Source: Dyadobacter sp. 50-39 (GTDB lineage Bacteria; Bacteroidota; Bacteroidia; Cytophagales; Spirosomataceae). From it: DNA of 64,000 nucleotides. The position numbers were made by a program, and so were the translations under genes. The notes beneath the pieces are model-generated. The model was not told where the DNA came from and did no database searches. It saw nothing but the letters and a program-made list of their open reading frames with translations. Shown here piece after piece: positions 249 to 20,051 of the stretch. Location of the stretch: contig MKSR01000010.1 of NCBI GenBank assembly GCA_001898145.1, positions 1 to 64,000 on the forward strand, written 5' to 3'. Every line of letters begins with the position of its first letter. Position 1 is the first letter of the stretch.

Positions 249-1865
249 CTACCAGAAGTAAGCATATAACGCAACGAGCAGAACAAGGACAACAACCGCT
301 CCCAGTACAAAGCCCGTGTGCGCCCTGAACATGGAAGCGTCTACGGCCAGTCCCTTTTTCTCATCTGGCAAAACAAAGCTTAGCAGGAACATCCCGGCCA
401 CGCAGATGACAAACACCCAGCCCATCCTGTCCAGAAAAGGTACCTGCGTCCAGTCTGTAAATGGCAGCCAGTTGTTGTGCATGGCCAGAGCGATCAGAAA
501 TCCACCCACAATCGCGAACAGCGCGCCGGCCGAATTACTGCGTTTCCAGAAAAAGCCCATAATAAAGGAAGCAAAAATCCCCGGGGAGAGCAGTCCGGTC
601 ATTTGCTGGATAAACTGGAAACCGCCCGCTTTATCAATACCCATATAAGGAGAAACCAGGATAGCCAGGATCATCGAGACTACGATGACGATCCGGCCGA
701 TGCGGACGAGCTGCGCCTCGGATTTGTTTTTACCTATATATATTTTGAAAATGTCCAGGGTAAATATGGTTGAAATACTATTGGCCTTTCCTGCCAGCGA
801 AGCGACAATAGCTGCCGTGAGCGCCGCAAAAGACAGCCCCTTCAAGCCGGCGGGCAGCAGATTCAGCAGCACCGGGTAGGCTTTGTCAGCCACGATCACT
901 CCATTCTCCGTCATTTCCTGCTGGAACAGTCCCTGGTTGTAAAGGGTATAGGCGGCAATTCCCGGCAACACGACGATTACCGGCATCAGCAATTTCAGGA
1001 ACGCTGCGAACAGCAATCCGTTCCGGGCCGTTTTGAGGTCTGCTCCCAGCGCCCGCTGCGTAATGTATTGGTTGCAGCCCCAGTAATTCAGGTTCACGAT
1101 CCACATACCGCCCAGCAGTACGGTCAGTCCCGGCAGTTCCATATAATGCGCGCTTCCCGGTTTAAAAATCATATGGAAGTGGTCCGCATGGTTTTCCCGC
1201 ATCATTTTCAGCCCGTTCACAAGACCGGATGTATCGAAATTTTCAGAGACGAGGTTGATCGCGATGTAGCTGGTCGCCAGCCCGCCGATGATCAGAAAGA
1301 AAACCTGTATAACGTCCGTGAAACCGATCACCTTCATTCCACCGATCGTGATAATAATAGAGAAGATAGCGAGACCCCACATACATAGGTCGAAATCAAG
1401 CCCGGAAATGCCGGATACGGCCAATGCTCCCAGATAGAGGATTGAGGTAAGGTTGACGAGAATGTATAGCCCCAGCCAGAAAATAGCCATAATCAAGCTC
1501 ACGGTCGGATTGTAGCGCTGGCTGAGAAACTGCGGCATGGTGAATATGTGGTTTTTCAGGTAAATCGGCATGAAAAACAATGCGACTATCACCAGCGTCG
1601 CCGCCGCCATCCATTCGTAGCTGGATATGGCAAGGCCCATTGAAAAACCATTCCCCGACATACCGATAAATTGCTCGGCGGAAATATTCGATGCAATCAG
1701 CGATGCTCCGATCGCCCACCAGGTTAGTGAACCCTCAGCCAGAAAAAAGTCCTTGGTAGAAGCTGTCTGACTTTTCTTCCGGTTGTAAATCCAATATCCA
1801 TATGCGGATACGATGATAAAATAGATAAAGAAGACAATGTAATCGAGGGAATGTAACTGTTTCAT
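249..1865 (-). CDS. Sodium/solute symporter (SSS family), probable sugar importer
   Basis: A 538-residue inner-membrane carrier of the sodium:solute symporter family, the right length for SglT-like sugar transporters. The N-terminus shows the family pattern: a first helix, a short basic loop, then FFLAEGSLTWWAIGASLIASNISAEQFIGMSG, whose last part is typical of the sodium-site helix in sugar symporters. About 14 hydrophobic segments follow. It is the last gene of the minus-strand polysaccharide locus, 95 bp after the tandem esterase, so it probably imports the monosaccharide released by that locus. A hairpin at 1894-1924 separates it from the esterase and may lower its expression. The substrate is inferred from context; xylose or arabinose would fit the GH43 enzyme. 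Confidence 0.88.
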   Translation of the reverse strand: MKQLHSLDYIVFFIYFIIVSAYGYWIYNRKKSQTASTKDFFLAEGSLTWWAIGASLIASNISAEQFIGMSGNGFSMGLAISSYEWMAAATLVIVALFFMPIYLKNHIFTMPQFLSQRYNPTVSLIMAIFWLGLYILVNLTSILYLGALAVSGISGLDFDLCMWGLAIFSIIITIGGMKVIGFTDVIQVFFLIIGGLATSYIAINLVSENFDTSGLVNGLKMMRENHADHFHMIFKPGSAHYMELPGLTVLLGGMWIVNLNYWGCNQYITQRALGADLKTARNGLLFAAFLKLLMPVIVVLPGIAAYTLYNQGLFQQEMTENGVIVADKAYPVLLNLLPAGLKGLSFAALTAAIVASLAGKANSISTIFTLDIFKIYIGKNKSEAQLVRIGRIVIVVSMILAILVSPYMGIDKAGGFQFIQQMTGLLSPGIFASFIMGFFWKRSNSAGALFAIVGGFLIALAMHNNWLPFTDWTQVPFLDRMGWVFVICVAGMFLLSFVLPDEKKGLAVDASMFRAHTGFVLGAVVVLVLLVALYAYFW

Positions 1866-1960: not shown

Positions 1961-3916
<1,956 letters not shown>

Positions 3917-3953: not shown

Positions 3954-5642
3954 CTATTCGGGCTGTTTCGGGAACATCGGATCGTTACCGCTGTATTTCA
4001 GGTATTTGAATGAGGCGGAATTGCTGGTCCTTTCACCCGACGACGTAGCATACAGCCCGAACAGACAGCCGATAAACCCGCCGGCCACTTTGGTACTGAG
4101 GAATTTAGCATCCAGCTTTTCTTTGAGCGGCTGCCAGGGGCCGCCGTTGGAAAAGTAAAAACTGTAAGTCTTTCCTTCCGCTGCAATGCGCAGCTTCACA
4201 GGTGCGGCGGGGTTGGGCAAAGCGATTTGCGTGAGCAGTTCCATTTCATTGCCTTGCGCAGCACTCCTGAACAGCTGGATCACCGGTTTGTTCTTCTCGG
4301 TCGATTTGCTGATCAGATAAAAGTGATGTTCGTCCTGGAAAATCGTCAGACCTGCTTTTTCCTTTTCCGAAGCGGCCGAAAAATCCAGTTCCGTTTCTGC
4401 TGTACAATATAAATGCTGCTGCCGCTTGCCTATAAAAGAAGGATTGCCCAGCTCCATGATCGTTTCCGGCTTTAATTTCAATGTCAGCCCGGCCTTTTTG
4501 GAAAGCGAGAATGAGCTGCTATCGACGGTCCGCATGAAAAGCAAGGCGGGATCGAGCTGCTTTTCGAAGGTAAGTGTGTAGGAGAAATTGCCGGCCTGCG
4601 GGCTTGCCCCCTTTTGCTTCACTTCGGCGAACGGCGCGGTATACTGGTACCGGATCTCCTTCGAATCCGGATTGATAATGGGCCATTGGTCTTTCCAAAC
4701 CACCGGGGCGATGAACGTTTCCCGGCCGGTATTGTAAAAATCGCCTTCATATGGCCTTACCGCGAGGAAAATGGCGTAAGTTTTGCCATCCGGTCCATCG
4801 ACGAATTGTACATGGCCCGCCGAAGTCACCGGGTCCTTCCGGTCTTCGGGAAGACCTTTTTGCGTTAAAATCGGGTTGTTTTCATAGGCGACGTAAGGCC
4901 CCCAGACAGATTTGCTGCGAAAAACCACTTCGGTATGGTTCACGGATGTTCCGCCCTCGGCCGCATAGAGGTAGTACCAGCCGAACCGCTTCATAATGTG
5001 CGGCGCCTCGATCCACACCGGTTTTTGGCTCAGATCTACCCCGCCATTGACCAGTTGCTTCTCTTCCCCGATCACTTTCAGGTTTTTCGGATCGAATTCA
5101 TAGATCCGGATCGTCCGGTGGCCTGAGTACAGCGGCTTGCGGTCCGGCGCATCGCTATTGTAAACGATGTAGGCCTTGCCGTCTTCATCGAAGAAGAGCG
5201 AAGGGTCAATGCCGCGGACTTGCGGGATGCGAACCGGATTACTCCAAGGGCCGGCCGGGTCCTTGGCTGTCACGACAAAGTTACCGTCGTGATCGATATC
5301 CGTGCAGGTCAGGTAGAACAGGCCGTCATGATAGCTGATCGCCGGGGCGAAAAGGCCCCTGGTTAACTTCTCCCCCATGAAGTCCATCTGTGAAGGACGG
5401 TCGATGACATTCCCGATCTGCTTCCAGTTTTTAAGGTCTTTGCTGTGAAACACGGGGATACCCGGAAAGTAGGAGAATGTCGAATTGACCAGGTAATAAT
5501 CTTTCCCCACCTGCACCACGCTCGGATCCGGGTAGAAACCCGTGAGGATCGGGTTCACGAGGGTGGTCGTCTGGGCTGAAACGCCATAGCTCAGCAACAG
5601 GCAAAGTGCGGCGCAAACGGCGCGGCTGAAATGCTTACTCAT
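3954..5642 (-). CDS. GH43 glycoside hydrolase (beta-xylosidase/arabinofuranosidase type)
   Basis: A secreted five-bladed beta-propeller hydrolase. I place the start at the ATG at 5642 (MSKHFSRAVC, then a signal peptide ending VSAQ), giving 562 residues. The open frame extends 26 codons further upstream but would then overlap the preceding regulator gene. The GH43 triad is visible: Asp39 in FYPDPS (base), Asp146 in GIDPSLFF (pKa modulator) and Glu212 in WIEAPH (acid). The C-terminal ~200 residues form a beta-sandwich like the C2 domain of xylan beta-xylosidases. It lies 31 bp after the HTCS regulator and 58 bp before the tandem esterase, so it is probably transcribed with them. It likely trims xylo-oligosaccharides; xylosidase versus arabinofuranosidase cannot be settled here. 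Confidence 0.9.
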   Translation of the reverse strand: MSKHFSRAVCAALCLLLSYGVSAQTTTLVNPILTGFYPDPSVVQVGKDYYLVNSTFSYFPGIPVFHSKDLKNWKQIGNVIDRPSQMDFMGEKLTRGLFAPAISYHDGLFYLTCTDIDHDGNFVVTAKDPAGPWSNPVRIPQVRGIDPSLFFDEDGKAYIVYNSDAPDRKPLYSGHRTIRIYEFDPKNLKVIGEEKQLVNGGVDLSQKPVWIEAPHIMKRFGWYYLYAAEGGTSVNHTEVVFRSKSVWGPYVAYENNPILTQKGLPEDRKDPVTSAGHVQFVDGPDGKTYAIFLAVRPYEGDFYNTGRETFIAPVVWKDQWPIINPDSKEIRYQYTAPFAEVKQKGASPQAGNFSYTLTFEKQLDPALLFMRTVDSSSFSLSKKAGLTLKLKPETIMELGNPSFIGKRQQHLYCTAETELDFSAASEKEKAGLTIFQDEHHFYLISKSTEKNKPVIQLFRSAAQGNEMELLTQIALPNPAAPVKLRIAAEGKTYSFYFSNGGPWQPLKEKLDAKFLSTKVAGGFIGCLFGLYATSSGERTSNSASFKYLKYSGNDPMFPKQPE

Positions 5643-5673: not shown

Positions 5674-8600
5674 TTATGCTTTTTCCATATAATTCTCTGC
5701 AAATGCGGTGGGCGAAACACCGTGCAACTCCCTGAATGCGACTGAAAAACTGTTCACATTGGCGAAGCCCACGGCAAATGCCACCTCGGACACCGTCAAT
5801 CCCTTTTTCGTCATCAGTTCGGCAGCCTGTTTCAACCGGATATTGCGGATCAGGTCGCGGGTCGTCAGATTGGTGAGCTCTTTGAGCTTCCGGTGCAAAT
5901 GCACCCTGCTGATCCCTATTTCATGAGCGATCATTTCTACGCTGAGGTCCGGATTGGCCAGGTTTTTGTCAATCAGGAGATGTACTTTTTCCAGCAGCTT
6001 TTCTTCCGAGGCCTTGATCTGGACCCTAGAAATGAATTCCTCCTGGTAATGCTGCTCGTTGTCGTTATTGCGCAGTATCTGCCTGTTCCTGATCAGCGCC
6101 TTGATCGTTTTCGTCAAAATCTGCACATTGAAAGGCTTGGTAATGTAGGCGTCCGCACCCATTTCCAGACCTTCTGCATTGGTCGATTCCGCCGTTTTGG
6201 CGGTAAGCAGGATCACCGGGATGTGGTTCACCAGCGGGTTGGCCTTCACTTTTTTACAGAGCGTCATACCGTCCATTACCGGCATCATCACATCGCTGAT
6301 GATCAGGTCCGGAATTTCTTTCAGAATGGCCTTGTAAGCCTCCTCGCCATTGGCATAGGAAAACACCTTGAATTCACCCGACATTTCGTCCGCCAGGTAA
6401 TTGCAGATTTCGCTGTCGTCGTCCACCACCACCAGGCGTTTGGCTTTCTTGCGGGCCTTTGTTTTATCGGCGTTTTCCACGTCCTTTTCCATCGGCGGCT
6501 CTTGCGCGGGCGGCATTTCAATGATTGACTCTGCCGCGCTTACTTCCAGCAGCGGCATTTCAATCACAAACCGGCAACCGATTTCACGCATATTCTCCGC
6601 CCGTATCCTGCCACCATGCAGCTCCACCAGCTGCCTCACCAGATGCAGGCCAATACCCGTCCCATGCCGGTTGTGGTCGCGGTGGCTGTCGGACTGGTAA
6701 AAGCAATCGAAAATGCGCTCCGTTTCCTGCTGGTCGATAAAAGGTCCGGAGTCTTCGACGGCCAATGTCAATTCTGGCCTCCCGCCCCGATGTTCTCCGT
6801 CGCTTACCGTCAGGGCTACGCGGATCCGGCCGCCTTTGGGGGTAAATTTAAATGCATTGGAAAGGACGTTGATCAGCACTTTATCAAAATTCAGCGGGTC
6901 GATTTGCGCGAAAATCCTTTGCGGAGGCGCGTCCACAACAAACTCCACCTTCTTACTTTCAATCTGCTCCTCGAACAGCAGGCATATTTCCCGGGTAAAA
7001 TCCACCATTTCCACCTTCGAAAATTGGAGCGACATTTGCCCTTTCTCGATCTTACGGATGTCCATCAGCTGATTAACCAGGTCTAATATACGTTTCGTGT
7101 TGCGCCCCATGATCTGGTACAAATGCATCCGTTCCGCATTGTAATCCAGGGTTTGCAGCTTTTGAAGCGGGCTCACCACCAGTGTCAGCGGCGTGCGGAT
7201 CTCGTGGGCGATATTGATAAAAAATTGCAGCTTGGCCTCATTCACCTCCTCGCGCCGCAAATGCGCCAGCATCTTTTGCTTCACGAGCCGCCTGTTTTTC
7301 AATGTTTTAAAAATATAACCGGCGGCAAGCAGCGCGAACAGGGCATATACAAGCCAGGCCCACACTGAAAAATACCAGGCAGGATGTATGATGATCGTCA
7401 CCCGCGTCTCTTCCGAGTCCGTCTTGCTCGACCGGGCTTTCAGCCGGAACTGGTACTTCCCGGGCGCCAGGTTGTCGAAAGTGAGCCTGTTGGTTCCTGC
7501 CCGGAGCGCGGTCCAGTCGTTGTCGTTGATCGCGTACATATAGGAAACCCGCTCTGCGTCAATGAAATCCATTGTCGAGAATTCCAGACTGAAAGAGTTG
7601 TCGTGATGCGCCAGGTTAAACTCTTTCGCGCTGCTCACGGTGGTATCGACAATCATGTAGCTGCCGGATTTCATACCCTTTTTCACAGCCTTGTCATGAA
7701 TGTAGAGATCCACAATGCGGACGGCCGGCCTTCTGGCGGACATCCGGATTTCCTCAGGCCTGAAATGTGTCAGCCCATTGATCCCCCCGAAATAGAATTC
7801 TCCATTTTTGGTCACCATGGAAGCACCCTGGCTAAACTCATTTCCCTGCAGCCCGTCGGCCGAATAGAAGTTGACGAACGTGTTGCTTTCCAGGTCCATT
7901 TTGGACAGGCCCCGGTTTGTACTCAGCCAAAGGTTCCCCGCTTTATCACCGCGAACGGCGCCGATCAGATTGCTGGGCAGTCCGTCGCCCATATCAAAAG
8001 TGGTAATCGCCCTGGTTGCGCGCGATATCTTTTTCAAACCCTGTGATGTCCCGGCCCACAAATTACCCTTGTCGTCGTCAAATAATGCGTAAATCACCAC
8101 ACCCTTCAATAGGCTGTTCACCCCGAATGTGGATATAAAACTTTTGGTTTCCAGGTCCAGGCAGGCCAGTCCGTTGAAAGTCCCGATGAAAAGCTTGTTG
8201 TCTTTCGCGATCAGCAGGCAGTTTACCCAGCTGTTAGGCAAAAAATTCTCCCCAGGCAGGCTGATCCGCCCCGGTAATGCGTCCAGGTTTTCAACGGCAC
8301 CGGTGCGGAGGTCCATACTGAAAATCCCCGAGCCCATCGTAGCGATCCAAAGCCTTTTTTCCGAATCTTCCTTCATATCGAAAACCCGCTGGACATTGTC
8401 CCCGTTACGGTCGGCAAGCTTGTCGGAATGGGTAAACTTCCCGGTTTTGCGGTCGAGCTTAGAGAGCCCGCTCAGGTATGACCCCGTCCAAAGATTACCC
8501 TCGGAATCCTCGAAAATGGTCATCACATTCTCGGGCGCGGATGGGTTACTGGCACGCCTGTGGTAATGGATCCCCGACTTACCCCCGCCGGGTAATGCAT

Positions 8601-9753
8601 ACAGGCCGTCATTGTCCGTCCCGACCCAGATCGTGCGGTCCTTGTCTTCAAACAACGCCTTCACCGCGCTGGACCCGATCAGATTTTTCGTCGCGGACTT
8701 GTAGCCCATGTAACCGAACCGATTGTTGTTGACGCCCAGCAGCAGAAGTCCTTTCTGGTAAATGCCCAGCCAGGTATTCCCGGAATTGTCCTCGCAAGCC
8801 GAGAAAACCTTCGATTTCGTAAAGTCAAATGCGTCCACATTATGGTTCATATCCAGGATTATGCCGGAAGCGGGATCAAAATATTTCAATCCATTCCCCC
8901 TCGTGCCGATCAGGATCTGCCCATTGTCGTTGACCATCAGGTTGGCGATGGGCAGGCTCCCGGTCCCGTGGTAGGGAATCGGCTGAAAAGTGTCGTTTAC
9001 AGGGCTGTATTGGTATAAACCGCTCACCATATTGCCGGCAAATACACGCCCGTATTTATCCTGGCAAAGGCTTGTAATGATGTTATTCTGAATCTTTTTG
9101 GAGACGAAGTACGATTTACGGGATTGTAAAGAACTACCTGAAAACCGGAGCAATCCACGGTCCTCGGTCGACACCCAGAGGTTCCGGTTGCTGTCTTCGA
9201 ATAGCTGGATGATCAGGTTACTCGGGACCTGCAACGGCACGGGAATAGCGCAAAGCTGTTTACCGTCGTGAACCACCCTGAATATACCGTGACCGGAAGT
9301 CCCCACCAGTATATCGCCGTTTTTACGCTCGCAGATAGCCAGTACCCGCACATTGGTCATTTTGCTCTCTCCAATCATCAGCGGGATCGTCCGGAAAGAA
9401 TCCGTGGCCGGATCATAATACTGGAGGCCGTGCAATGAGCCGGTGTACATTCTTCCATGATGGTCTTCAAAAAGGACCTGGATAAAATTGCTGGATACTC
9501 CTCCGCCACTCGCCTTATCCTGCCGGTAAACGGTGAACTTGATCCCGTCGAACCGGTTCAGTCCGTCCTCGGTAGCCACCCATATAAAGCCCCGCCGGTC
9601 CTGGTGAACAGCAGTAACCATGCTGCTCGACAACCCGTTTTCGACGTTAAAAAGCTTTGCGGACTGAGCGGACGCATGCGACGCTACAAACAGCCAGATT
9701 ACCAGCGCCTGCATGGCCCGGTTGAAGCGGGACACGCCTGTACTTTTTCTCAT
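5674..9753 (-). CDS. Hybrid two-component system regulator (HTCS)
   Basis: A one-protein sensor-regulator of 1359 residues if translation starts at the ATG at 9753 ([10 protein letters not shown], followed by a signal/anchor ending ASAQS). The domain order is an N-terminal sensor of repeated Reg_prop beta-propeller units (about 30-690), a Y_Y_Y domain (about 700-780) and one membrane helix (about 790-815). Next come HisKA with His850 in [10 protein letters not shown], HATPase_c, a receiver with phospho-acceptor Asp1154 in ISDVMMP, and an AraC-type helix-turn-helix. HTCS proteins bind oligosaccharides in the periplasm and activate their own locus. Here the gene lies between susCD and the hydrolase genes. 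Its own promoter carries the same direct repeat as susC (9895-9923 and 15182-15210), which predicts positive autoregulation. Confidence 0.95.
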
Positions 9754-9856
9754 CCATGCATTGTAGCTGCTTCCCCCGGTGCACCCTTCGACTGCGGTCA
9801 TGTTACTTTTCTGTTGTTACTGTTAACTGCTTTTTACCTCGATTTACAACAGAAAA

Positions 9857-9923
9857 CAAAGATATATGGGGATAATACTATAACTGACCGCACAATGTTA
9901 CACAAGTCATAGCCCATGTTACC
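9857..9923 (-). promoter_or_regulatory. HTCS gene promoter with 21-bp-period direct repeat
   Basis: On the minus strand a -7 box TATCTTTG (9864-9857) matches the Bacteroidota consensus TAnnTTTG. Exactly 30 nt upstream of it lies a direct repeat: ATGTTACA at 9895-9902 and ATGTTACC at 9916-9923 (plus-strand reading), start-to-start 21 bp, with CATAG in the spacer. The susC promoter has the same arrangement. A 21-bp period places both half-sites on one face of the helix, as expected for a dimer of AraC-type domains. Confidence 0.75.
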
Positions 9924-9926
9924 AAT

Positions 9927-9957
9927 CGGAAGCCCACCCATGCCGGGCAGGCTTCCG
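9927..9957 (-). terminator. Hairpin after susD
   Basis: CGGAAGCC (9927-9934) and GGCTTCCG (9950-9957) form a perfect 8-bp stem just after the susD stop, with further pairing (GCCC/GGGC) in the loop. There is no T-run. It could attenuate or stabilise the susCD message ahead of the HTCS gene. It lies directly beside the HTCS operator. Confidence 0.4.
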
Positions 9958-9968
9958 ACGTACATTAC

Positions 9969-11786
9969 TCAGTATCCAGGGTTCTGCTTGATACCGGCAT
10001 TCTGGTCCAGTACATTTTGAGGGATCGGGCTCATGTATTGTTTCAGCTCGAATTTTACTTTGTACTTCTTCTCCTCTTCAATGGTGTAGACCCAAACACC
10101 GGAGTTATTGGCCGGCACCGAATTGCGGATGACCATATTGTGCCGCGGCTTGTTCATGACGGTCGCCGCAGCGCCCAGGCGTTTGTTGTCCAGGAAGCGC
10201 TTGTCTTCAAAGCAAAGCTCCACCCGCCGCTCCCGCGCAATGGCCGTGCGCATAGCGTCTTTGGACAAACCTGCCGGAAGCGCAGGGAGCTCGGAACGCG
10301 CCCGCAGCTTGTTGATCGCGTCGTATACCGAAGCATCGGGGCCGGCCGCTTCGTTTTGCGCCTCGGCAAAATTCAGCAGGATCTCGGCATAGCGGAAAAA
10401 GATGTAGTTCTGCCCGCTGGCGTCGGCACCGGGCGCCGCGTCCGGGTTCAGGCGCTTCTTCTGGTAATATCCCGAGTCGCCCACATCGGTTTTTCCGGCC
10501 AGGTCGATCTGGTTGGTGCGGTCAGGGTTAGGGTACGTGGCGTCGATACGGGTGTAGATGGTATCGGCGCGGGGCATCCAGTCCTGCTTGTACACCGCTC
10601 CGTCGAACACGATGGCGTCATAAAACCGCTTTTCACGGTTGGCATACGGCTTTTGCGGATTATAGCCCGAAGTCGGGTCAGTGATCGGCTTTCCGTTTGC
10701 CATAGCAAACTGGTCTACCAGTTCCTGGGTAGGATTATAGTTTCCCCATGAGCGATATTCGCCCAAGACATAGGTAGGTCCGCCCCGCTGCTCGTAGCTG
10801 GAACCCATTCCACCGACGTTCGCCACCACCTGACGGTCCCAGATCACCTCCGAATTGTACTCGTTGCTGACCCTGAAAATTTTTTTGAGGTCGCCGAAAA
10901 GATTATACCGTTGCCCGTTGCCGTATTTATCGATGAATTGCTTGTTGGTCGCGGCTGCCTTCGCCCAGCGCGAAGCGTCGAAGTTGCCGAAATGCACGAA
11001 CTTGCCGGGGTCGGGTAAATAAGGCGTAGCGGTGTTGAACAGCGGACTCGCACCAAAAAGCTCGATCCAGCCCTTCACAGCCAATGCGGCTCCCAGCGTC
11101 GCGCGGCCCGCATCCTTGTCGGACGAATTGTATTTCACCGCCAGATGCTCCCCTTTCACAACCTGGTCCAGTTCATTGACAATGAAGTCGAAAGTTTCCT
11201 GGAACGTCTTTCTGGGTTGCAGCAGCTCCTCGGGACTCATGGTGTTTCTATCCAGAGGCACGGTAATGATGGGCAGCCCGCCGATATGGACAAAAAACTC
11301 GGAGTAAAAGAAGGCTCTGAGGAACCTGGCTTCGTCGATGCGTTTGCTGTAATACGCCTCCGAAAAATTCGCTTTGTTCTCCGTCAGTTTCTGAATAAAA
11401 GTGTTGCATTTGCGGATCTTGACGAAAAAGTTCTGCCAGGTATAGCCGTAAGTCGGGCCCTGGGTTCCTCCCCACGGGTTATCGGTACTGCTCGACGGGA
11501 TTTGGGTAACCCCCTGGCGCCAGTTGGACGCCGTATAATAATGACTGATGTTGTAGTCGTCGCTGAAATAGTCCAGGGTTTCCGTCTGATTCAGTTTGTT
11601 CGGCAACTCACTGTAAACATCGTTGAGAAATACATCGGCATTCGTTTCCGACTCCCACTGGGTTTTGTCGGTCAGGTTGGCCTTATTGGCATTTTCCAAA
11701 AACTCGTCCGTATCGCAAGCCACCGGCAGTATCGCCATCAAAATGCAAGCGCACGATATTTTCAAATAATTCATTACAGCTTTCAT
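9969..11786 (-). CDS. SusD/RagB-family surface glycan-binding lipoprotein
   Basis: A 605-residue SusD-family protein with a lipoprotein signal peptide whose lipobox LPVAC puts the lipidated cysteine at residue 24. SusD proteins form the lid of the SusC channel at the outer surface and capture oligosaccharides through a TPR-like helical scaffold. The C-terminal family pattern is visible: a run of arginines and glutamates in RERRVELCFEDKRFLD, then IPQNVLDQNAGIKQNPGY. It starts 14 bp after the susC stop, so the two are co-transcribed. An ATG four codons further in (11774) is an alternative start. The ligand is inferred from the neighbouring GH43 and esterase genes. Confidence 0.93.
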   Translation of the reverse strand: MKAVMNYLKISCACILMAILPVACDTDEFLENANKANLTDKTQWESETNADVFLNDVYSELPNKLNQTETLDYFSDDYNISHYYTASNWRQGVTQIPSSSTDNPWGGTQGPTYGYTWQNFFVKIRKCNTFIQKLTENKANFSEAYYSKRIDEARFLRAFFYSEFFVHIGGLPIITVPLDRNTMSPEELLQPRKTFQETFDFIVNELDQVVKGEHLAVKYNSSDKDAGRATLGAALAVKGWIELFGASPLFNTATPYLPDPGKFVHFGNFDASRWAKAAATNKQFIDKYGNGQRYNLFGDLKKIFRVSNEYNSEVIWDRQVVANVGGMGSSYEQRGGPTYVLGEYRSWGNYNPTQELVDQFAMANGKPITDPTSGYNPQKPYANREKRFYDAIVFDGAVYKQDWMPRADTIYTRIDATYPNPDRTNQIDLAGKTDVGDSGYYQKKRLNPDAAPGADASGQNYIFFRYAEILLNFAEAQNEAAGPDASVYDAINKLRARSELPALPAGLSKDAMRTAIARERRVELCFEDKRFLDNKRLGAAATVMNKPRHNMVIRNSVPANNSGVWVYTIEEEKKYKVKFELKQYMSPIPQNVLDQNAGIKQNPGY

Positions 11787-11800
11787 AATATCGTTTATCG

Positions 11801-14800
11801 TTAAAATGTCAGATCAATTCCAAATGTGCTCGCCTTCATCACCGGGTAGGCTGTTTCACGGTCGGTGTAGCCCATCTCAGGATCGATGTGTTTGATTTTG
11901 CTGATCGTAAACAGGTTTTGCGTCAGGAAATAAACCCTCGCCGAGCTCATTTTCAGTTTGCTGCTCAAAGCTTTGGGCAGCGTGTAGCCGATGCTCGCTG
12001 TTTTCAGGCGCACGTAGCTGGAATTCACCCACCAGAAATCCGAATCTTTCGTGTTGTTGGCGTAAGGTGCCGGGGTCGATCTGGGGTATTTCGCATCCTG
12101 ATGATCCGGCGTCCAGCGGTTGTCGTAATATTCGTCGGCGGTGTTGCTGCCGTTATTTTCAAATGGAACGGTCATGAATTGTCTGACATTGATGCTGGAT
12201 TTTCCTGATCCCTGGAAAAACAGGCTCACATCAAACCCTCTCCAGTTCACGCTCGGTGTAAGACCGAATGTCAATGCAGGGTAAACAGGGTTCCCGATCA
12301 CGGTCAGGTCGAAGTTGTCGATCAGGCCGTCCGGCTTGCCGTCCGGGCCGCTCAAATCCGCATATTTGATATCGCCGGGGTGCAGGTCACCGAACTGTGT
12401 AACATTGTATCCGTCGGCGGCACCCACGATACCGTCCCCGTTTTTATCCTCGGCCGAAGTAAACAATCCGAGCGACTTAAACCCGAATGGCGTTCCGAAC
12501 TGTCGTCCTACCAGTGTCCGGTTAGGATTTTTCGCCTCCGCATCGGTTTGGAACACTTCCTGCATTTTGTTGATCGAATAGCTCAGGTTGGCATTCAGAG
12601 AGAAATCCAGGTCTTTGGATATTCTCTTGCGGGTTCCGAGGTTGAGCTCCACGCCGTTCGCGCTCATTCTGCCCTTGTTTTCCTGCGAAAGCGACAGTCC
12701 GTATTCCACCGGCAATGTTACCTGCGGCGCCAGCAGCATACCGGTGCGCTTTTCGTGGAAATAGTCGAATTCAACCGTTAACAGGGAATTCCACATGCTC
12801 AGGTCGAAACCAAAGTCCGTTTTGGTGGATATTTCCCAGGTGATCCTGGAATTTGCTTCGCGCGGCACCCGTGATCCCTGCACCAGCGAGCCTCCTCCGA
12901 AAGCATAAGCAGCCCCCCTCAGGTCATACCCCGACTGATACTGGAATGGTCCCCCGGCCAGCATCCCGGCCTTGCCCCACGATCCCCGCACTTTCAATTC
13001 GTCGATGAAGCGGAAATTCTTCATAAAGTTCTCTTCCGACACCCGCCAGGCGGCCGAGAATGCCGGGAAATAACCCCAGCGGCTGCCGGGTGCAAAGTAA
13101 TAGTGCCCGTCGTAACGTCCGGCCGCTTCGAGAATGTACCGGTCTTTGTAGGTATACCCCAGCCGGTATACGTAACCCAGTTCCGAACCGGTGGACGACA
13201 CCCCGGCATTGTCATAATCCAGCTTGTCGGAGCTACCGAAGCTGAGCTCGTCAATGCCGATCGCGAAGTTGTTGCGGCGTGTCGCCATGGAATCGGATTT
13301 GGTTTGACGCGCCTCCAGCACCACGAGGCCGGTGATCGCATGCGCTCCGAAAGTGCGGTTATAGTTCAGGTAGCCCTGGTAGGTGAAGTTGGTCCGTTTC
13401 TGATTCTGCAATCCCAGCCAGCGGAAAGGCCTTCCGTTACCCTCCTGAAGTGAAATGGCTTCGGTGTAGGTGTAAGGTTTTTGAGAAAGGTCAATTTTGT
13501 GGTAAACAAACGGTACGTGCCAAAGTTTCACATTTTGCTGCCACGGATCATAGCTGAACACCGCTTTGGCACTCAGGCCTTTGGCAATCTGCTGCTCCAC
13601 GTATATCGTCCCCAGCAGAGTATTGCCGTTCGTTCTTCTGTATCCTTCTGATCTCAAAACACCAATGGGCGTACTGGCCGACGACTCTCCCCATTTATCT
13701 CCCTCGGGATAGATCAGGCTCTGTGTAGGCAGAAATTTGTAGAAGCTCCGGAAAAGGTGACCGGAAGTGGTTTCGTCGGCATCTACGTCCCTGGTATTTT
13801 CCACGCTTCCAAACAGTGACATCCCCACTTTGGTGGTTTTGGTGGCTGCCATTTCAAGGCTCAGGTTGTAGTTGTACCGCCTGTAACTTACCGGATCGAA
13901 AATACCCTTCTGATCGAAATAGCTCACGCCGGCGTGATAGGTGACATTTTCCGTGCCGCCGCTTAGTTCAAGGCCGTGATTCTGCACAGGCACGTTCTTC
14001 TTGAACACATCGACAAAACTGGAGTTCGGGTACTTCCAAGGGTCTTCGGCGTGCAGCTGGTCGTAATTTTTCACCATTTCCGGGTCGTTGGGCAAGCTGG
14101 TTCCGCCGGGTGTCTGGTTCAGGTAGGCTTCGTTCTGCAATGTCATGTAATCCCTGGCCGAGAGCATTTTCGGCAGGTAGGTAGGGTTCTGAAACCCGTA
14201 GGAAGAGCTGATCCTGACCTGCGGCTTGCCGCTTTTGCCCCTTTTGGTCGTAATCATAATTACCCCGTTGGCACCGCCGATCCCGTAAGGTGCCACCGCC
14301 GCGGCATCTTTCAATATCGTGATCGTCTCGATACTGGCGGGGTCCACCTGGCGGATATTGTCCCTGCGGACACCGTCCACCACCACCAGCGGCCGGTTAT
14401 TGCCCGTTGTGACAATCCCGCGGATGTGAATATCCGGGTCGTCCTTTCCGGGCTGTCCGCCGTTGGGGCGCATACTCACACCCGCCACGCGCCCGGCCAG
14501 CGATTGAGAAATGTTCGCTACAGGCACCTCGGCAATGGCATCGCCTTTGATGCTGCTGATGGAGCCTGTCACCGTGGCTTTTTTCTGGGTACCGTAGCCT
14601 ACGACCACGATCTCCTCCAAAGCTTTGGTATCCTGGGCCAGCACCACCTCCAGCTTGGTTACCGTACCCACCTGGATTTCTTTGGCCAGGTACCCAACAA
14701 AAGAGAAAACGAGCACATCCTGGTCATTGACAGATTCCAGCGAATAGGCCCCGCTCACGTCCGTGGACGTGCCGCGCGTGGTGCCCTTAATGGTAACGTT

Positions 14801-14992
14801 GACCCCGGGAAGTCCCTGGCCCGCCTCGTCGGTTACTTTACCATTCAATTTCTTGTCGATCGATCGCGTCCGCGCGGTTCCGACCATTTCCACTGGGCCC
14901 GCAACGCCGGCGGCCAACGAGCCTGACGCCACAGCCAGACTTGTTAATTGTAGAAATGACAATTGTAAAAAAAGCCGTAATTTTCTTTTCAT
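11801..14992 (-). CDS. SusC/RagA-family TonB-dependent transporter
   Basis: An outer-membrane TonB-dependent glycan importer of 1063 residues. I place the start at the ATG at 14992 (MKRKLRLFLQ, followed by a signal peptide); the open frame extends 21 codons further upstream without a good leader. The order is a carboxypeptidase-regulatory-like domain (GKVTDEAGQGLPGVNVTIKG), a TonB box region (EEIVVVGYGTQKK), a plug domain and a 22-strand barrel ending in a hydrophobic strand (FGIDLTF). It has no N-terminal STN domain, consistent with control by the HTCS protein rather than by FecR/sigma. It pairs with the downstream SusD, 14 bp away. Confidence 0.94.
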   Translation of the reverse strand: MKRKLRLFLQLSFLQLTSLAVASGSLAAGVAGPVEMVGTARTRSIDKKLNGKVTDEAGQGLPGVNVTIKGTTRGTSTDVSGAYSLESVNDQDVLVFSFVGYLAKEIQVGTVTKLEVVLAQDTKALEEIVVVGYGTQKKATVTGSISSIKGDAIAEVPVANISQSLAGRVAGVSMRPNGGQPGKDDPDIHIRGIVTTGNNRPLVVVDGVRRDNIRQVDPASIETITILKDAAAVAPYGIGGANGVIMITTKRGKSGKPQVRISSSYGFQNPTYLPKMLSARDYMTLQNEAYLNQTPGGTSLPNDPEMVKNYDQLHAEDPWKYPNSSFVDVFKKNVPVQNHGLELSGGTENVTYHAGVSYFDQKGIFDPVSYRRYNYNLSLEMAATKTTKVGMSLFGSVENTRDVDADETTSGHLFRSFYKFLPTQSLIYPEGDKWGESSASTPIGVLRSEGYRRTNGNTLLGTIYVEQQIAKGLSAKAVFSYDPWQQNVKLWHVPFVYHKIDLSQKPYTYTEAISLQEGNGRPFRWLGLQNQKRTNFTYQGYLNYNRTFGAHAITGLVVLEARQTKSDSMATRRNNFAIGIDELSFGSSDKLDYDNAGVSSTGSELGYVYRLGYTYKDRYILEAAGRYDGHYYFAPGSRWGYFPAFSAAWRVSEENFMKNFRFIDELKVRGSWGKAGMLAGGPFQYQSGYDLRGAAYAFGGGSLVQGSRVPREANSRITWEISTKTDFGFDLSMWNSLLTVEFDYFHEKRTGMLLAPQVTLPVEYGLSLSQENKGRMSANGVELNLGTRKRISKDLDFSLNANLSYSINKMQEVFQTDAEAKNPNRTLVGRQFGTPFGFKSLGLFTSAEDKNGDGIVGAADGYNVTQFGDLHPGDIKYADLSGPDGKPDGLIDNFDLTVIGNPVYPALTFGLTPSVNWRGFDVSLFFQGSGKSSINVRQFMTVPFENNGSNTADEYYDNRWTPDHQDAKYPRSTPAPYANNTKDSDFWWVNSSYVRLKTASIGYTLPKALSSKLKMSSARVYFLTQNLFTISKIKHIDPEMGYTDRETAYPVMKASTFGIDLTF

Positions 14993-15467
14993 AATGAAAA
15001 TGAATAAAAGGTGGTAGAAGCATTCATTCACAATGATCTTTCCGATCATTGGCACTCAGCAGAAAACCTGGTTCGGGAAGGCCTGGCCTGTTGGTGGTGG
15101 AGGATGTATTCGGTTCAACCCTTCCCGTTAGCACATCTAAGCACAAATATATATTCACATAATGCAATTTTGAGTCCCGTTATGTTACAAAAAGCATAGA
15201 TTATGTTACATTTTTAAGACCGACCCTGATTCGTTTGCTAGGGCATAAGAAATCCTGCCCCCGCAACGTCACGGGCGGGGGTTCCGCTTTCCATTCGGGA
15301 TGCGCCACGTAGCGTATAGCCAGATCAGTAGATACATGGCAAATACACCTTCACTACCAGGAAATTACCCTTGCTTTCGAATTCTCGCGTATCCATATTC
15401 GCCTTTTCCTTACCACGAGGTCCGGCGATAGGATGGTATCCTGTGTCACCTGCTGAGCAACTGCCCT
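14993..15467. other. Divergent intergenic region between susC and kinase gene
   Basis: This 475-bp gap holds the susC leader (about 145 nt), the susC promoter and its direct repeat (15144-15210), and a GC-rich inverted repeat CCCCCGC (15258-15264) / GCGGGGG (15275-15281) without a T-run. No small gene stands out. I found no clear -7 box for the plus-strand kinase gene that begins at 15468. Confidence 0.5.
15144..15210 (-). promoter_or_regulatory. susC promoter with 21-bp-period direct repeat
   Basis: The -7 box TATATTTG (minus strand, 15151-15144) fits TAnnTTTG. Exactly 30 nt upstream begins a direct repeat ATGTTACA (15182-15189) and ATGTTACA (15203-15210) with a 21-bp period and CATAG in the spacer. 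Across the 29-bp element it matches the HTCS-promoter copy at 22 positions. This is the likely binding site of the locus HTCS protein; the binding itself is inference. Confidence 0.78.
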
Positions 15468-17726
15468 ATGAACCCGACCCGACTGCTTCTGCTGTTTTTT
15501 TTCGCTGTTCTGTACGCGCGCGCCTGGGCCATAGAGCCCTTCTATCCTAAATATGGTTTACAGGATGCGCGCCGCGATCAGAAGTTCTTACGCTCCCAGG
15601 TGGCGGATACGACCCAGCTTTACCGCGCGATCCGGCTGAGCCGGTTCCATGTCTACAAGCCCGGGCAAAGCAAGCCGGATTTGGATAGCGCCTACTCCTT
15701 TTACACCATTGCCAGCCAGATATGTAATAAAATGAACGCCCCCCGCTACCGTGCCGACGTGCTGAACCTGCTGGGTGCGATCGTTCATGAAAGGAACGAC
15801 ATCAGCGGCGCATTGGCGCTTCATCAACAAGCGGCCGCGCTGGCCAGAAGCCTGGGCGATTTGCCCAGGGAGGCCGAAAGCTGGTACCTGAGCGGGGAAA
15901 CCGAGCTTAGCGGCGGTAGCAAAGATTCCCCTCACTACCAGACCGCCCTGCGGTTGTATTCCAAAGCCGGCCTTCCCGAGCGCCAGGCGTATGTGCTGTG
16001 CAGGATTTCGCTTACCCAAACGTTCAACAGCCAGTACGACGCCGCGCTTCGCTCCTCGCTCGAAGCCTTGAAGCTTTACCAGTCCGTGCACTATCCCCGC
16101 ATGCGGTACGTTCATACCGATTTGCTTCGCATTAACCGCGATCTGGGACTTTACAGCCAGGCATTACAATACGGCCTGCTTGCCATCGACGAATCGCAGA
16201 AAGTGCGTGACACCGGACATCTTGCCGGCTGCTACCTGTCGATGGGGTTGCTCTACGAGCAGCTGGGCGACCTGGCCAGCGCGATCAAATACCAAAAGGA
16301 GTGCGTCAATGCGGGAATCGAGGTTGCCAATGCAAGCGGGGTCCTGAACGGTACCCGGTTTGTTGCCACCAACCTGATGCTGCTGGGCAAAACCAGGGAG
16401 GCCGGGAGGTATTTCATGCCCATTTTCAGGCAGTTCCCGCCCAGGAGCCTGGGCGACAGCCTTATTCACCTCTCGGTATGGGCGCGGTACTACGTTTTCA
16501 ACCGGCAATTGGATAAAGCAGTACCTATTTTCCAGTCGTTGCTGAAACATGAGGATAATCTTGAAGTATACATTCAGAACTATGGAGAACTTACCAATCT
16601 CGAAATCGCGGAACATTACCTGAAACATGATCGCTGGGACCGGGCGCGCTTTTACGTCACAAAGGCCGCTCAAAGGGCCGCAAGTTCGCCCAGGACGCGC
16701 GTCGACATAGCCCTGAGGATTCAAAAAGCCATGTATCTCGCCGATTCGGCGCAGGGGAAGTTCGCTTCCGCGCTCGAACATTACAGAATGCACCGAAAAC
16801 TGAGCGATTCCCTGTTCTCTGTTCAGAAAAGCCTTCAGATGGCTGGTATCCAGGTACAATTCGATGTAAAAAGGAAAGAACAGGACATTACGCTGCTCAC
16901 CCAACGGAACAGGATACAGCAGGAACGTATACAGAACCAGGAATCGCAGCGGAAAGCAATGATCGGCGGCACGGCGATGCTATCCTTTCTGCTGCTTTCG
17001 CTGTATGTACAATTCCGCAACAAGCAGAAAAGCAATCAGGAACTGACGCTGCACCAGCGGGTAATCGAAGATTCAAATGCCCGGTTGATGCGCACCGTGG
17101 AGGAGAAACAAATGCTGGTGAGGGAAATCCATCACCGGGTCAAAAACAACCTGCAAACGGTCATCAGCCTGCTCGAATCCCAGGCATTCTACCTGGAAAA
17201 CGATGCACTGGCCGCTGTGAAGGACAGCCAGAGCCGCATTCATGCGATGTCGCTCATCCATCAGAAGCTGTATCTGGCCGATAATGTGACGTCCATCAGC
17301 ACGCAGGCATATATCGAGGAACTGATCCTGCACCTCAGCAGCAGTCACTCCGATAGCGGCCGCATTCGCATCGACGTGCAGGTTGAACCGATCCAACTGG
17401 ATGTAGCCCAGGCGATCCCGCTCGGGCTGATCATTAACGAAGCGGTTACGAACATCTTCAAATATGCATTCCCCGATGACCGCTCAGGTGACATGCTGAT
17501 CCATTTCAGCCAAAATCCAGACAACCAATACACCCTCCATATCCGCGATAATGGCATCGGCATTGATACGGCTGCGGACCAGGGCAAGCCGGGTTCGCTG
17601 GGTATGAACCTGATGAAAGGCCTCACCCATGAGCTGGGAGGCACTTTTACCTTGAAATCCGATCAGGGAGTAGCGATTACCGTTCAGTTTGCACCGCTTC
17701 AACATTATTGGGAAAATCATGCGTAA
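15468..17726 (+). CDS. TPR-containing sensor histidine kinase (HisKA_2 type)
   Basis: A 752-residue kinase with a signal peptide (about 1-21) and TPR-like helical repeats in the presumed periplasmic region (about 60-480). These are followed by a coiled coil (RKEQDITLLTQRNRIQQERI), one membrane helix (MIGGTAMLSFLLLSLYV, about 502-518), a HisKA_2 phosphorylation motif REIHHRVKNNLQT (His555/His556) and a HATPase domain with DNGIGI. Kinases of this class commonly pass phosphate to a separate response regulator. The nearest candidate is the sigma-54 activator at 21073. The stop overlaps the start of the next kinase gene (ATGCGTAA), which suggests translational coupling. Confidence 0.9.
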   Translation: MNPTRLLLLFFFAVLYARAWAIEPFYPKYGLQDARRDQKFLRSQVADTTQLYRAIRLSRFHVYKPGQSKPDLDSAYSFYTIASQICNKMNAPRYRADVLNLLGAIVHERNDISGALALHQQAAALARSLGDLPREAESWYLSGETELSGGSKDSPHYQTALRLYSKAGLPERQAYVLCRISLTQTFNSQYDAALRSSLEALKLYQSVHYPRMRYVHTDLLRINRDLGLYSQALQYGLLAIDESQKVRDTGHLAGCYLSMGLLYEQLGDLASAIKYQKECVNAGIEVANASGVLNGTRFVATNLMLLGKTREAGRYFMPIFRQFPPRSLGDSLIHLSVWARYYVFNRQLDKAVPIFQSLLKHEDNLEVYIQNYGELTNLEIAEHYLKHDRWDRARFYVTKAAQRAASSPRTRVDIALRIQKAMYLADSAQGKFASALEHYRMHRKLSDSLFSVQKSLQMAGIQVQFDVKRKEQDITLLTQRNRIQQERIQNQESQRKAMIGGTAMLSFLLLSLYVQFRNKQKSNQELTLHQRVIEDSNARLMRTVEEKQMLVREIHHRVKNNLQTVISLLESQAFYLENDALAAVKDSQSRIHAMSLIHQKLYLADNVTSISTQAYIEELILHLSSSHSDSGRIRIDVQVEPIQLDVAQAIPLGLIINEAVTNIFKYAFPDDRSGDMLIHFSQNPDNQYTLHIRDNGIGIDTAADQGKPGSLGMNLMKGLTHELGGTFTLKSDQGVAITVQFAPLQHYWENHA

Positions 17727-20051
17727 ACCGATCCTATTTCCCGCATTCACGGCACGTTTGACCAGCATCACCGGGATCCTGAATTGCACATTCGCCGGCA
17801 AGCTTTTCAGAATCGGCTGCCTGTGGCCCGCTCTGCTTTTGAGCGTGTTGCAGAGCCGCGCCCAAACCGAATACGCGGATCTCGGCCAATACCAACGCCA
17901 GTTACTGTCCGCCAGGTCGGATCAGCAAAAAGCTTCCGCGATGCTGTCGATTGGATTCCACTTCTTATCAAAACCGGGCGAGCGGGAAAACGATATGAAG
18001 GCGGCACAGGCATATGGTAAGGCCGCACACAGGATCGCCACGCGACTCGGTTCCGACAGCCTGCAAGCGAGGGCGCTGCTGCTATCGTCCCAGATCCTGA
18101 AAGAAAGCGGCAAACGGGCCGAAGCGCTCGCTACGCTCAACCAGGCGATCGCCCGATACAGCGCGTCCGGCGATTTGGCCGGGGAGGGAACGGCGCTGAT
18201 GGAAAAGAGGCATTACTATCAGCTTTCCGGCCCGGAAATGGATGAGCGGATCAGGGTGGTTTCCAGGGCCGCTCAGTTGTTTAAGCGAGCCGGCGATCAA
18301 CGCCTTCGGGGCGATGCATTGCTGGAACTGGGTGATGTAGTCGGCAACGACGGGAAACTGATGGAGGCGATCGACTACCTGAAACAAGCGGACATCGCCT
18401 ACCGGCAGGCCGGGTTTCCAAGACGCAATACCTGTACAGCACCCTTTGCATTGCACACACCGCGCTCGGCAGTTATCAGGAAGGTTTGGAATATGGGTTT
18501 AAGGCGGAGAAAGTTGCCAGGTCCCTGGGAGATTCAAGTCAAACCCTTACGACCATTTATAACCGGATCGGGATTACCTACTATAATCTGGAAGATGAGC
18601 TGAATGCGTTGGAATTCTTTAAAAAAGGACTGGCCGTAGCCGTGAGGAATAACGACGAGGACGGAACGCTGTACTTAACCGGCAACGTGCTGAACATTCT
18701 GCTGCTCAGGAAGAGAAGCATTGCAAAATCAATGCTGCCTGAATTGGACAGCATCGTCACCCGCGGTTCGGCTAAGTCAATCAAACCGATCCCCTATTCG
18801 GAGATCTGCAGGACTTACCTGCATGTTGGCAATGCCGGACGTGCCAAATTTTTCCTTGATCAATTGCTGGAATTTCAAAAATCGAAACCGCTCAGTCCTT
18901 CCGAAGAGATGCCGGTTTACCGGGCGGCGTACGAATACTACTATTATTTAAAGGACTTCCGGACCGCGCGTCGGTACCTGGATCAGGAAGCAGTACTGGC
19001 CCACCGGTCACTGGATACAAGGAGGTTGCAGGGAATATATCAAAGCCGCTACAAGCTCGACTCCGTCGACGGCAATTACAAGTCTGCGTTCGAGAATTTG
19101 AAAAAGTTTAAGACATACACCGATTCAACCGCAGCCAACAAGGCCCGCAACGAGCTTCAAACCCTGACGGTACGCTATCAACTGGAAATGAAAAACGATG
19201 AGATTAAGCTGAAATCGGACAATATCAAGCTTCTGACCAAAGATAACGACGCCCAGAAAGCGCTGCTTCACCGGGCGGACGTGATCCGGAACATTACGAT
19301 TGCCGCCATCGTGCTGCTCATTATGCTCCTGGCGGCGCTGTACAGCCGCTGGAACGCCAACCGCAGGAACAGCATCATCATCGCCAATAAAAATCAGCGC
19401 CTGGAACAGTTGGTACGGGAGAAGGAATGGCTGGTGAAGGAAATCCACCACCGGGTCAAGAATAATTTGCAAACCATCATCAGCCTGCTCGAAACCCAGG
19501 CGGCATTCTTGCGGGACGACGCGCTGTCGGCCGTATTGGACAGCCAGCACCGGATCCACGCCATGTCGCTGATCCATCAGAAATTGTATTTGGTAGACAC
19601 CTCCACATCGATCGATATGAGGCCTTATGTCGAAGAACTGGTGCATTACCTCGCGGATAGCTTCGATCCGAATGCCAAAATTGAGATCGCTCTGGACGTC
19701 GATCATGTGCTGCTGGATGTTTCGAGAGCCATTCCGGTAGGACTCATTGTCAATGAAGCCGTTACCAATGCCATGAAGTATGCCTACCTCAATCGCGAAA
19801 CAGGCGTGCTGCAAGTGAGTTTGAAACAATCACCGGGAAAACGGATCGAACTGCGTATACAAGACGACGGGATCGGGATGCCGCCCACGATGGACAATGT
19901 CCGACCCTCTTCGCTGGGCATGCGGCTGATGAAGGGCCTCGCGAACGAAATCAGTGGCGAGCTGGCGATCGAAAGCCGGCACGGCACCGCGGTCAGCCTG
20001 ATATTCCCCCTGAACGAACCCATTGTCACAACGCCGGAGCGTCCCTTCTGA
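17719..20051 (+). pseudogene. Second TPR/HisKA_2 sensor kinase, broken by a 1-nt frameshift
   Basis: A paralogue of the preceding kinase, starting at the ATG at 17719 that overlaps the previous stop. The reading frame is intact to about 18417 (AYRQAGFP) and then continues one base out of register (KTQYLYSTLCIAHTALGSYQ) to the stop at 20051. Restoring one C in TTTCC at 18415-18419 would give one 777-residue protein with TPRs, a membrane helix near 19290-19340, KEIHHRVKNNLQT and a HATPase domain. As it stands, the first frame stops at 18603 and leaves a kinase-less TPR protein. A shorter product could begin at the ATG at 18486 and still hold the membrane and kinase parts. Either a recent inactivation or a sequencing error would explain it. 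Confidence 0.85.

Follow-up and report, generated by a model that had tools for sequence, protein, structure and literature searches.

Tandem candidate operators for an XynR-like hybrid two-component regulator in Dyadobacter and their counterparts across Bacteroidota

Hybrid two-component systems (HTCSs) are a main class of switch for the use of plant polysaccharides in Bacteroidota. Here we consider an HTCS gene of Dyadobacter sp. 50-39, which lies beside a susC-susD pair in the first 64,000 nucleotides of contig MKSR01000010.1 (the window), and two matched sequence elements, one before susC and the other before the HTCS gene itself. We regard it as highly probable, judging from comparisons of sequence, that both elements are tandem activator sites for the adjacently encoded, XynR-like HTCS, which would thereby also stimulate its own synthesis. 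From the observed position of the elements, their uniqueness in the genome, their conservation, their fixed spacing, their co-occurrence with one HTCS clade and the types of gene that follow them, we infer binding by the HTCS, activation, feedback and the substrate.

The paired elements and their conservation in the family

As written on the forward strand, the element reads ATGTTACA-N13-ATGTTAC. Both copies face minus-strand genes, and in the orientation of these genes the element becomes GTAACAT-N13-TGTAACAT, i.e., two half-sites with a period of 21 bp in both copies. The features concerned are:

15182..15209, minus strand: candidate operator of the susC promoter; exact copy, kept exact in 8/8 Dyadobacter loci including the window
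15151-15144, minus strand: -7 box of susC, TATATTTG, 30 nt from the operator
9895..9922, minus strand: candidate operator of the HTCS promoter; exact copy, kept exact in 6/8 Dyadobacter loci
9864-9857, minus strand: -7 box of the HTCS gene, TATCTTTG, 30 nt from the operator

Both elements are exact at the places given by the original prediction, with 22 of 29 positions identical between the two 29-base stretches; its claims of a spacing of two helical turns and of a 30-nt distance to a TAnnTTTG box in both promoters hold likewise. The main sigma factor of Bacteroides has TAnnTTTG as its published -7 consensus (PMC7366714). The original prediction had further counted the spacer letters CATAG as part of the signal; these are not conserved over 25 family sites, at which the otherwise variable spacer has a near-invariant AT at +12/+13 from the first G of GTAACAT (in gene orientation). 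The half-site TGTWACA is nearly identical to its reverse complement, so that its designation as a direct repeat rests on the central base: this is A in both halves at the 25 family sites, which were themselves chosen by their letters with at most one mismatch, but GTTAC and GTAAC occur together in two of the Bacteroidaceae sites recovered at one mismatch.

Within the window, the element alone is a weak signal at up to three mismatches (three matches against 1.07 expected, with 8/100 shuffles reaching three). Coupled to a box at 30 nt, it is matched twice against 0.00 expected, with the pattern being derived from the same two sites; hence, the fair test is that offered by the relatives. The 7.7-Mb genome has exactly two exact copies, those before susC and before the HTCS gene, and no third. 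At up to two mismatches there are eight matches, the other six all being within open frames, as against 32 for a reversed control.

The search for orthologs of the HTCS covered the best matches in 200 of the 222 family genomes, with three further ortholog genomes coming from another search, and recovered 18 ortholog-bearing genomes, including the window's own (63-85% HTCS identity in the others). The element is found with at most one mismatch in all 18 (15 exact and three with one mismatch). This clear conservation in orthologous loci supports the operator role that the original prediction had assigned to the element. Unrelated copies, whose abundance would have spoken against that role, are few: the 222 family genomes hold 36 exact copies in 24 genomes, 24 of them, in 15 genomes, near an HTCS ortholog; and none of the nine examined among the 12 distant ones has a -7 box within 75 nt. 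Although the box was not searched for, its distance is 30 nt at 26 of 27 sites (the above 25 sites and two more in G079, both with 30 nt) and 29 nt at the remaining one, the susC site of L068.

In nine family genomes of other genera (with Spirosoma and Fibrivirga as named relatives) there are 11 sites, three before an HTCS gene and eight before susC genes whose products are only 28-30% identical to the SusC of the window. The identity of the HTCS DNA-binding domain is 88-97% within Dyadobacter and 75-80% in these other genera. The presence of the site before HTCS genes or non-orthologous susC genes in other genera thus indicates that the operator tracks the regulator rather than the target.

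The regulator clade and associated sites beyond the family

Among more distant HTCSs, a group of 18 loci from rumen and gut Bacteroidales, here termed rumen-type, was delimited by HTCS identity (33-36%) after many had already shown matches, and a Bacteroides reticulotermitis locus (L092) of 41-49% identity was counted with the 51 other HTCS loci. The core TGTAAC-N15-TGTAAC, followed at 29-30 nt by a -7 box, is present in 16 of the 18 rumen-type loci (14 without mismatch) and in 0/51 of the others, which have two exact and 14 one-mismatch matches to the core, none with a box; with two mismatches allowed, the counts become 17/18 and 1/51. At periods of 19, 20, 22 and 23 there is no exact core in the 80 loci scanned. 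In a quick tree, made with no bootstrap, with flagged long branches and with two of eight Bacteroidaceae HTCS candidates left out, the HTCSs of the window, Spirosoma-type, rumen-type and five Bacteroidaceae sequences (39 rows) are separated from 35 others by a branch with an approximate likelihood ratio (SH-aLRT) support of 100.

A site is found 3.9-4.6 kb upstream of the HTCS gene, on the same strand, in 15 of the 18 rumen-type loci. Ten of these were read, and each has a frame of 1183-1213 aa beginning behind the site, which suggests that the regulator gene comes second after its own operator. The three without an upstream site comprise two that begin <340 bp from a contig end and a true exception, L079. 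Together with the HTCS-side site in six of eight Dyadobacter loci, this arrangement supports the positive feedback loop that had been predicted from the window. The neighbors of the HTCS in the two rumen-type loci scanned include a GH10 xylanase, an esterase, a GH43, an MFS_2 sugar transporter and an FGGY kinase. The interposed protein of about 1200 aa (L087:6159-9800 and its equivalents in other rumen-type loci) has a signal-peptide-like start, and the one scanned matched no Pfam family.

A blind pattern, TGTAAC-N15-TGTAAC-N31or32-TAnnTTTG, was then run with a reversed control across 396 genomes of the class. Four have it: three Bacteroidaceae, among them Bacteroides ihuae, and the window's own, caught via its susC promoter (the HTCS promoter has GGTAAC instead); the control gave 0. 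The three Bacteroidaceae sites directly precede runs of esterase, GH43 and GH95 genes (two sites) and a GDSL-SASA esterase gene (one). Allowing one mismatch at N31 in seven Bacteroidaceae genomes yielded eight sites in five genomes and none with the control; the five added sites precede a GH115 gene, a GH43 gene, a GH43 frame of uncertain start, given that its N-terminal third has no match, a SASA-domain gene, and a sugar transporter gene divergent from another SASA-domain gene. Over 298 Bacteroidaceae genomes there are 71 sites in 51 genomes, again with none in the control. In the 29 of these sites that were read, a frame starts 0 to 223 nt behind the box. The downstream proteins of 17 of the 29, chosen to avoid near-copies, were scanned: eleven are CE15, GH3, GH8, GH43, GH97, GH115, CE1, a carboxylesterase and three SusC, and the remaining six comprise three with a fasciclin domain, two without a family and an aspartyl protease. 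Thus, most of the scanned downstream genes code for glycoside hydrolases, esterases or SusC, several of them xylan-type.

The HTCS relative of B. reticulotermitis, with 58% identity in the DNA-binding domain, is closer to the window HTCS than is the rumen group; its gene (L092:10001-14013) is split over two frames near 11605, possibly by a frameshift. Across the whole record of this species, the pattern finds four sites at N31, of which two are exact and two have a single mismatch, as against one match for the control, and none at N32. Each of the four is followed by a glycoside hydrolase gene, twice of GH43 and once each of GH31-type and GH3. As these sites are distant from the HTCS gene, regulator and targets can be far apart.

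Mechanism, alternatives and precedents

We advance the following as the probable mechanism. A phosphorylated HTCS dimer would set its two AraC-type DNA-binding domains head to tail on the TGTAACAT half-sites, which, being 21 bp or two turns apart, would present the same face of the DNA. With 30 nt between the end of the site and the -7 box, which places the site immediately 5' of the -33 region, the HTCS would aid RNA polymerase carrying the main sigma factor, and the fixed distance suggests a direct contact between the two. One site would drive susC-susD; the other would drive the HTCS gene together with the GH43, esterase and symporter genes, which continue on the same strand. The site before the HTCS gene would make the circuit self-reinforcing as soon as the oligosaccharide is present. 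The likely signals are xylan-type oligosaccharides, since distant members of the clade lie among xylan genes; the xylan-type character of the targets is clear in the two rumen-type loci and at many Bacteroidaceae sites, while the window has a GH43, an esterase and a symporter but no GH10.

Several observations count against this proposal. The window locus has no GH10 xylanase. The reversed 15-base element, run as a control, matches 51 times in five of the 222 family genomes, with three related genomes accounting for 49 of these. The AT that follows the first half-site is not repeated after the second. In D. bucti and Dyadobacter sp. CY323 (L069 and L070), the HTCS-side site is absent along with its -7 box, with the susC site kept; that arm of the feedback is hence dispensable in two of eight Dyadobacter loci, and expression of the HTCS in these two may depend on read-through. 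The exceptional L079 is inside the clade and has no site at up to two mismatches. Further, the DNA-binding-domain identities of the rumen group (39-47%) overlap those of other HTCSs (28-45%), so that identity alone does not explain the common letters. Among the Bacteroidaceae, the presence of the clade was checked in seven genomes, and four of the five with a site have a member in the tree; G412 has a one-mismatch site and a best HTCS match of only 30% identity; the 24-kb L092 locus, reaching up to 10 kb from the HTCS relative, has no site; and one site precedes the aspartyl protease gene. As a separate observation on the reversed control, its exact matches number 5, 21 and 23 in G109, G111 and G113, where a repeated element may carry the pattern.

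Could the HTCS act instead as a repressor that leaves the DNA on sensing the sugar? A repressor-type model was put forward for an arabinoxylan HTCS in a 2021 study, whose text describes the bound sequence as still 'yet to be determined' (PMC7815789). Against this, the fixed place 30 nt upstream of the -7 box is activator-like; DNA-binding by an unphosphorylated B. thetaiotaomicron HTCS is described as repressed (PMC11253607); and knockout of a xylan HTCS is reported to lower the expression of its genes (PMC4855328). We therefore leave this option only a small probability. A shade less probable is that the elements are sites of another regulator, such as a global carbon regulator of the Crp type like BT4338 of Bacteroides, whose reported consensus wwwTATGTTnTAnAACATAwww has ATGTT in common with the start of the half-site (PMC11501099). 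The Crp palindrome TATGTTnTAnAACATA is, however, unmatched at either element at up to three mismatches, and we reject the identification as a Crp/BT4338 site on that ground; moreover, exact copies are limited to this locus in the genome, which would be unexpected of a global regulator, and the occurrence of the core follows a single HTCS clade. Finally, we give scarcely any credence to the view that the likeness of the two promoters stems only from recent duplication without a selected operator: wider 78-bp stretches of the two do have 46 positions in common, but the half-sites and spacing are fixed while the spacer and flanks diverge, and the core persists with its spacing in Bacteroidales.

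The activator arrangement has a classic precedent in AraC of Escherichia coli at araI1-araI2, where the half-sites form a direct repeat with a 21-bp spacing immediately upstream of the promoter. Unlike the window HTCS, AraC is a soluble sugar-binding regulator acting at a sigma-70 promoter through other letters. The tandem arrangement has also been proposed for HTCSs, with motifs predicted in 2013 for 16 B. thetaiotaomicron HTCSs, all of them direct repeats averaging 21 bp (Ravcheev 2013, PMC3878776); hence this kind of site was already known, and the description of HTCSs as a class with few defined sites, made in the original prediction, has to be given up. Like those motifs, the window sites have a period of 21 bp, are kept before the targets of orthologous regulators and, at 27 sites in 18 genomes, have an unconserved spacer, the AT excepted. 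They differ in belonging to another bacterial order and in standing also before the regulator's own gene; a fixed 29-30 nt to the -7 box is not stated for the earlier motifs in the parts of PMC3878776 available to us. SusR of Bacteroides, likewise a membrane regulator controlling polysaccharide genes, has direct-repeat motifs in the same paper, with repeat centers 67 or 77 bp apart as against 21 in the window.

Closer in function is XynR of Prevotella bryantii, described as an HTCS that induces xylan genes (PMC8002723): the two rumen-type loci recall its xynABCDER cluster, whereas the window locus differs from the P. bryantii xylan genes in having GH43 and an esterase with no GH10, and the likeness to XynR is one of description. 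The literature searched on HTCS sites, mostly open papers, states no fixed -7 distance and no xylan-HTCS motif in the parts available to us; a figure supplement of PMC5061871 presents predicted sites and -7 boxes together, and the distance may be visible there. Accordingly, what look new here are this example, the fixed -7 distance and the conservation across orders.

How far do period and distance extend? A motif-free test of distant HTCS loci for a universal 30-nt distance was only partly successful. At SusC promoters (15 boxes in 12 loci) a period of 22 was commonest (nine) and 21 rare (one); at HTCS promoters (65 boxes in 50 loci) a period of 21 came first (26), with 10 close behind (24) and the distances scattered. 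Nine boxes passed the score, and in seven of them the best repeat had a period of 21 or 22; the distances ranged from 26 to 54 nt. Hence, the period looks general, whereas the 30-nt distance is established in this clade alone, with a hint of it in one paralog. The latter, a paralogous HTCS neighborhood of the same genome (L209, C40), has TTTGAACA-N13-TTTGAACA with a period of 21, lying 31 nt from TACTTTTG, a box 68 nt before the listed susC start: the same layout in other letters. Most other HTCS and susC promoters of this genome have no clear repeat or no TAnnTTTG box. With these mixed results, we lean slightly towards a promoter grammar of HTCSs kept from Cytophagales to Bacteroidales, in which a 21-bp tandem site stands 29-30 nt from the -7 box and the letters of the half-site name the regulator, with TGTAAC denoting a xylan-type regulon readable across Bacteroidota and the L209 paralog using the same grammar with other letters. 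With letters, spacing and promoter distance known over two orders, the regulon of a xylan-type HTCS would become listable from genome sequence alone.

The locus and its transcripts

The host genome of 7.7 Mb in 48 contigs is Dyadobacter-type, its nearest named relatives being D. soli, D. beijingensis and other Dyadobacter. On the minus strand of the window, the genes run in the order susC, susD, HTCS, GH43, two-domain esterase and sodium:solute symporter:

11801..15055, minus strand: susC-like TonB-dependent transporter, with a listed GTG start
9969..11786, minus strand: susD-like glycan-binding lipoprotein
9925..9959, minus strand: strong hairpin just 3' of susD, adjoining the HTCS operator, with no long T run
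5674..9801, minus strand: HTCS regulator of 1375 aa, with propeller sensor, Y_Y_Y, histidine kinase, receiver and AraC-type HTH
3954..5642, minus strand: GH43 with a C-terminal beta-xylosidase-type domain, starting at an ATG and separated from the HTCS gene by 31 bp
1961..3895, minus strand: putative two-domain carbohydrate esterase
249..1865, minus strand: sodium:solute symporter, the final gene of the same-strand run

For susC, the in-frame ATG at codon 22 is likelier to be the true start than the listed GTG. The identification of the regulator as an HTCS is secure: Reg_prop, Y_Y_Y, HisKA, HATPase_c, Response_reg and HTH_18, all the expected domains, score above their own cut-offs in one chain. 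The hairpin, whose 61-nt fold has a z of -5.1 (0/200 shuffles being equally stable), is positioned between the susD stop and the HTCS operator, about 2 nt short of the latter, and is a possible terminator of the susCD transcript. Given this placement, susCD and the HTCS gene look like separate transcripts, with leak-through being possible.

Between the symporter and the gene that lies past susC there are six gaps, and these contain no TAnnTTTG boxes besides those of susC and the HTCS gene; in particular, none was found before the GH43, esterase or symporter genes. The claim that the hydrolase genes are read from the HTCS promoter is thus plausible, with the qualification that read-through from susC could also supply them. 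Divergent from susC, the forward strand (15468-20051) codes for two HisKA_2-type histidine kinases, one with TPR repeats; their common gap with susC has no TAnnTTTG box on that strand. In the receiver of the window HTCS, residues 1192-1195 read NHIP; the first position of this stretch, described as part of an inhibitory contact (PMC11253607), is Ser or Cys in 84% of HTCSs.

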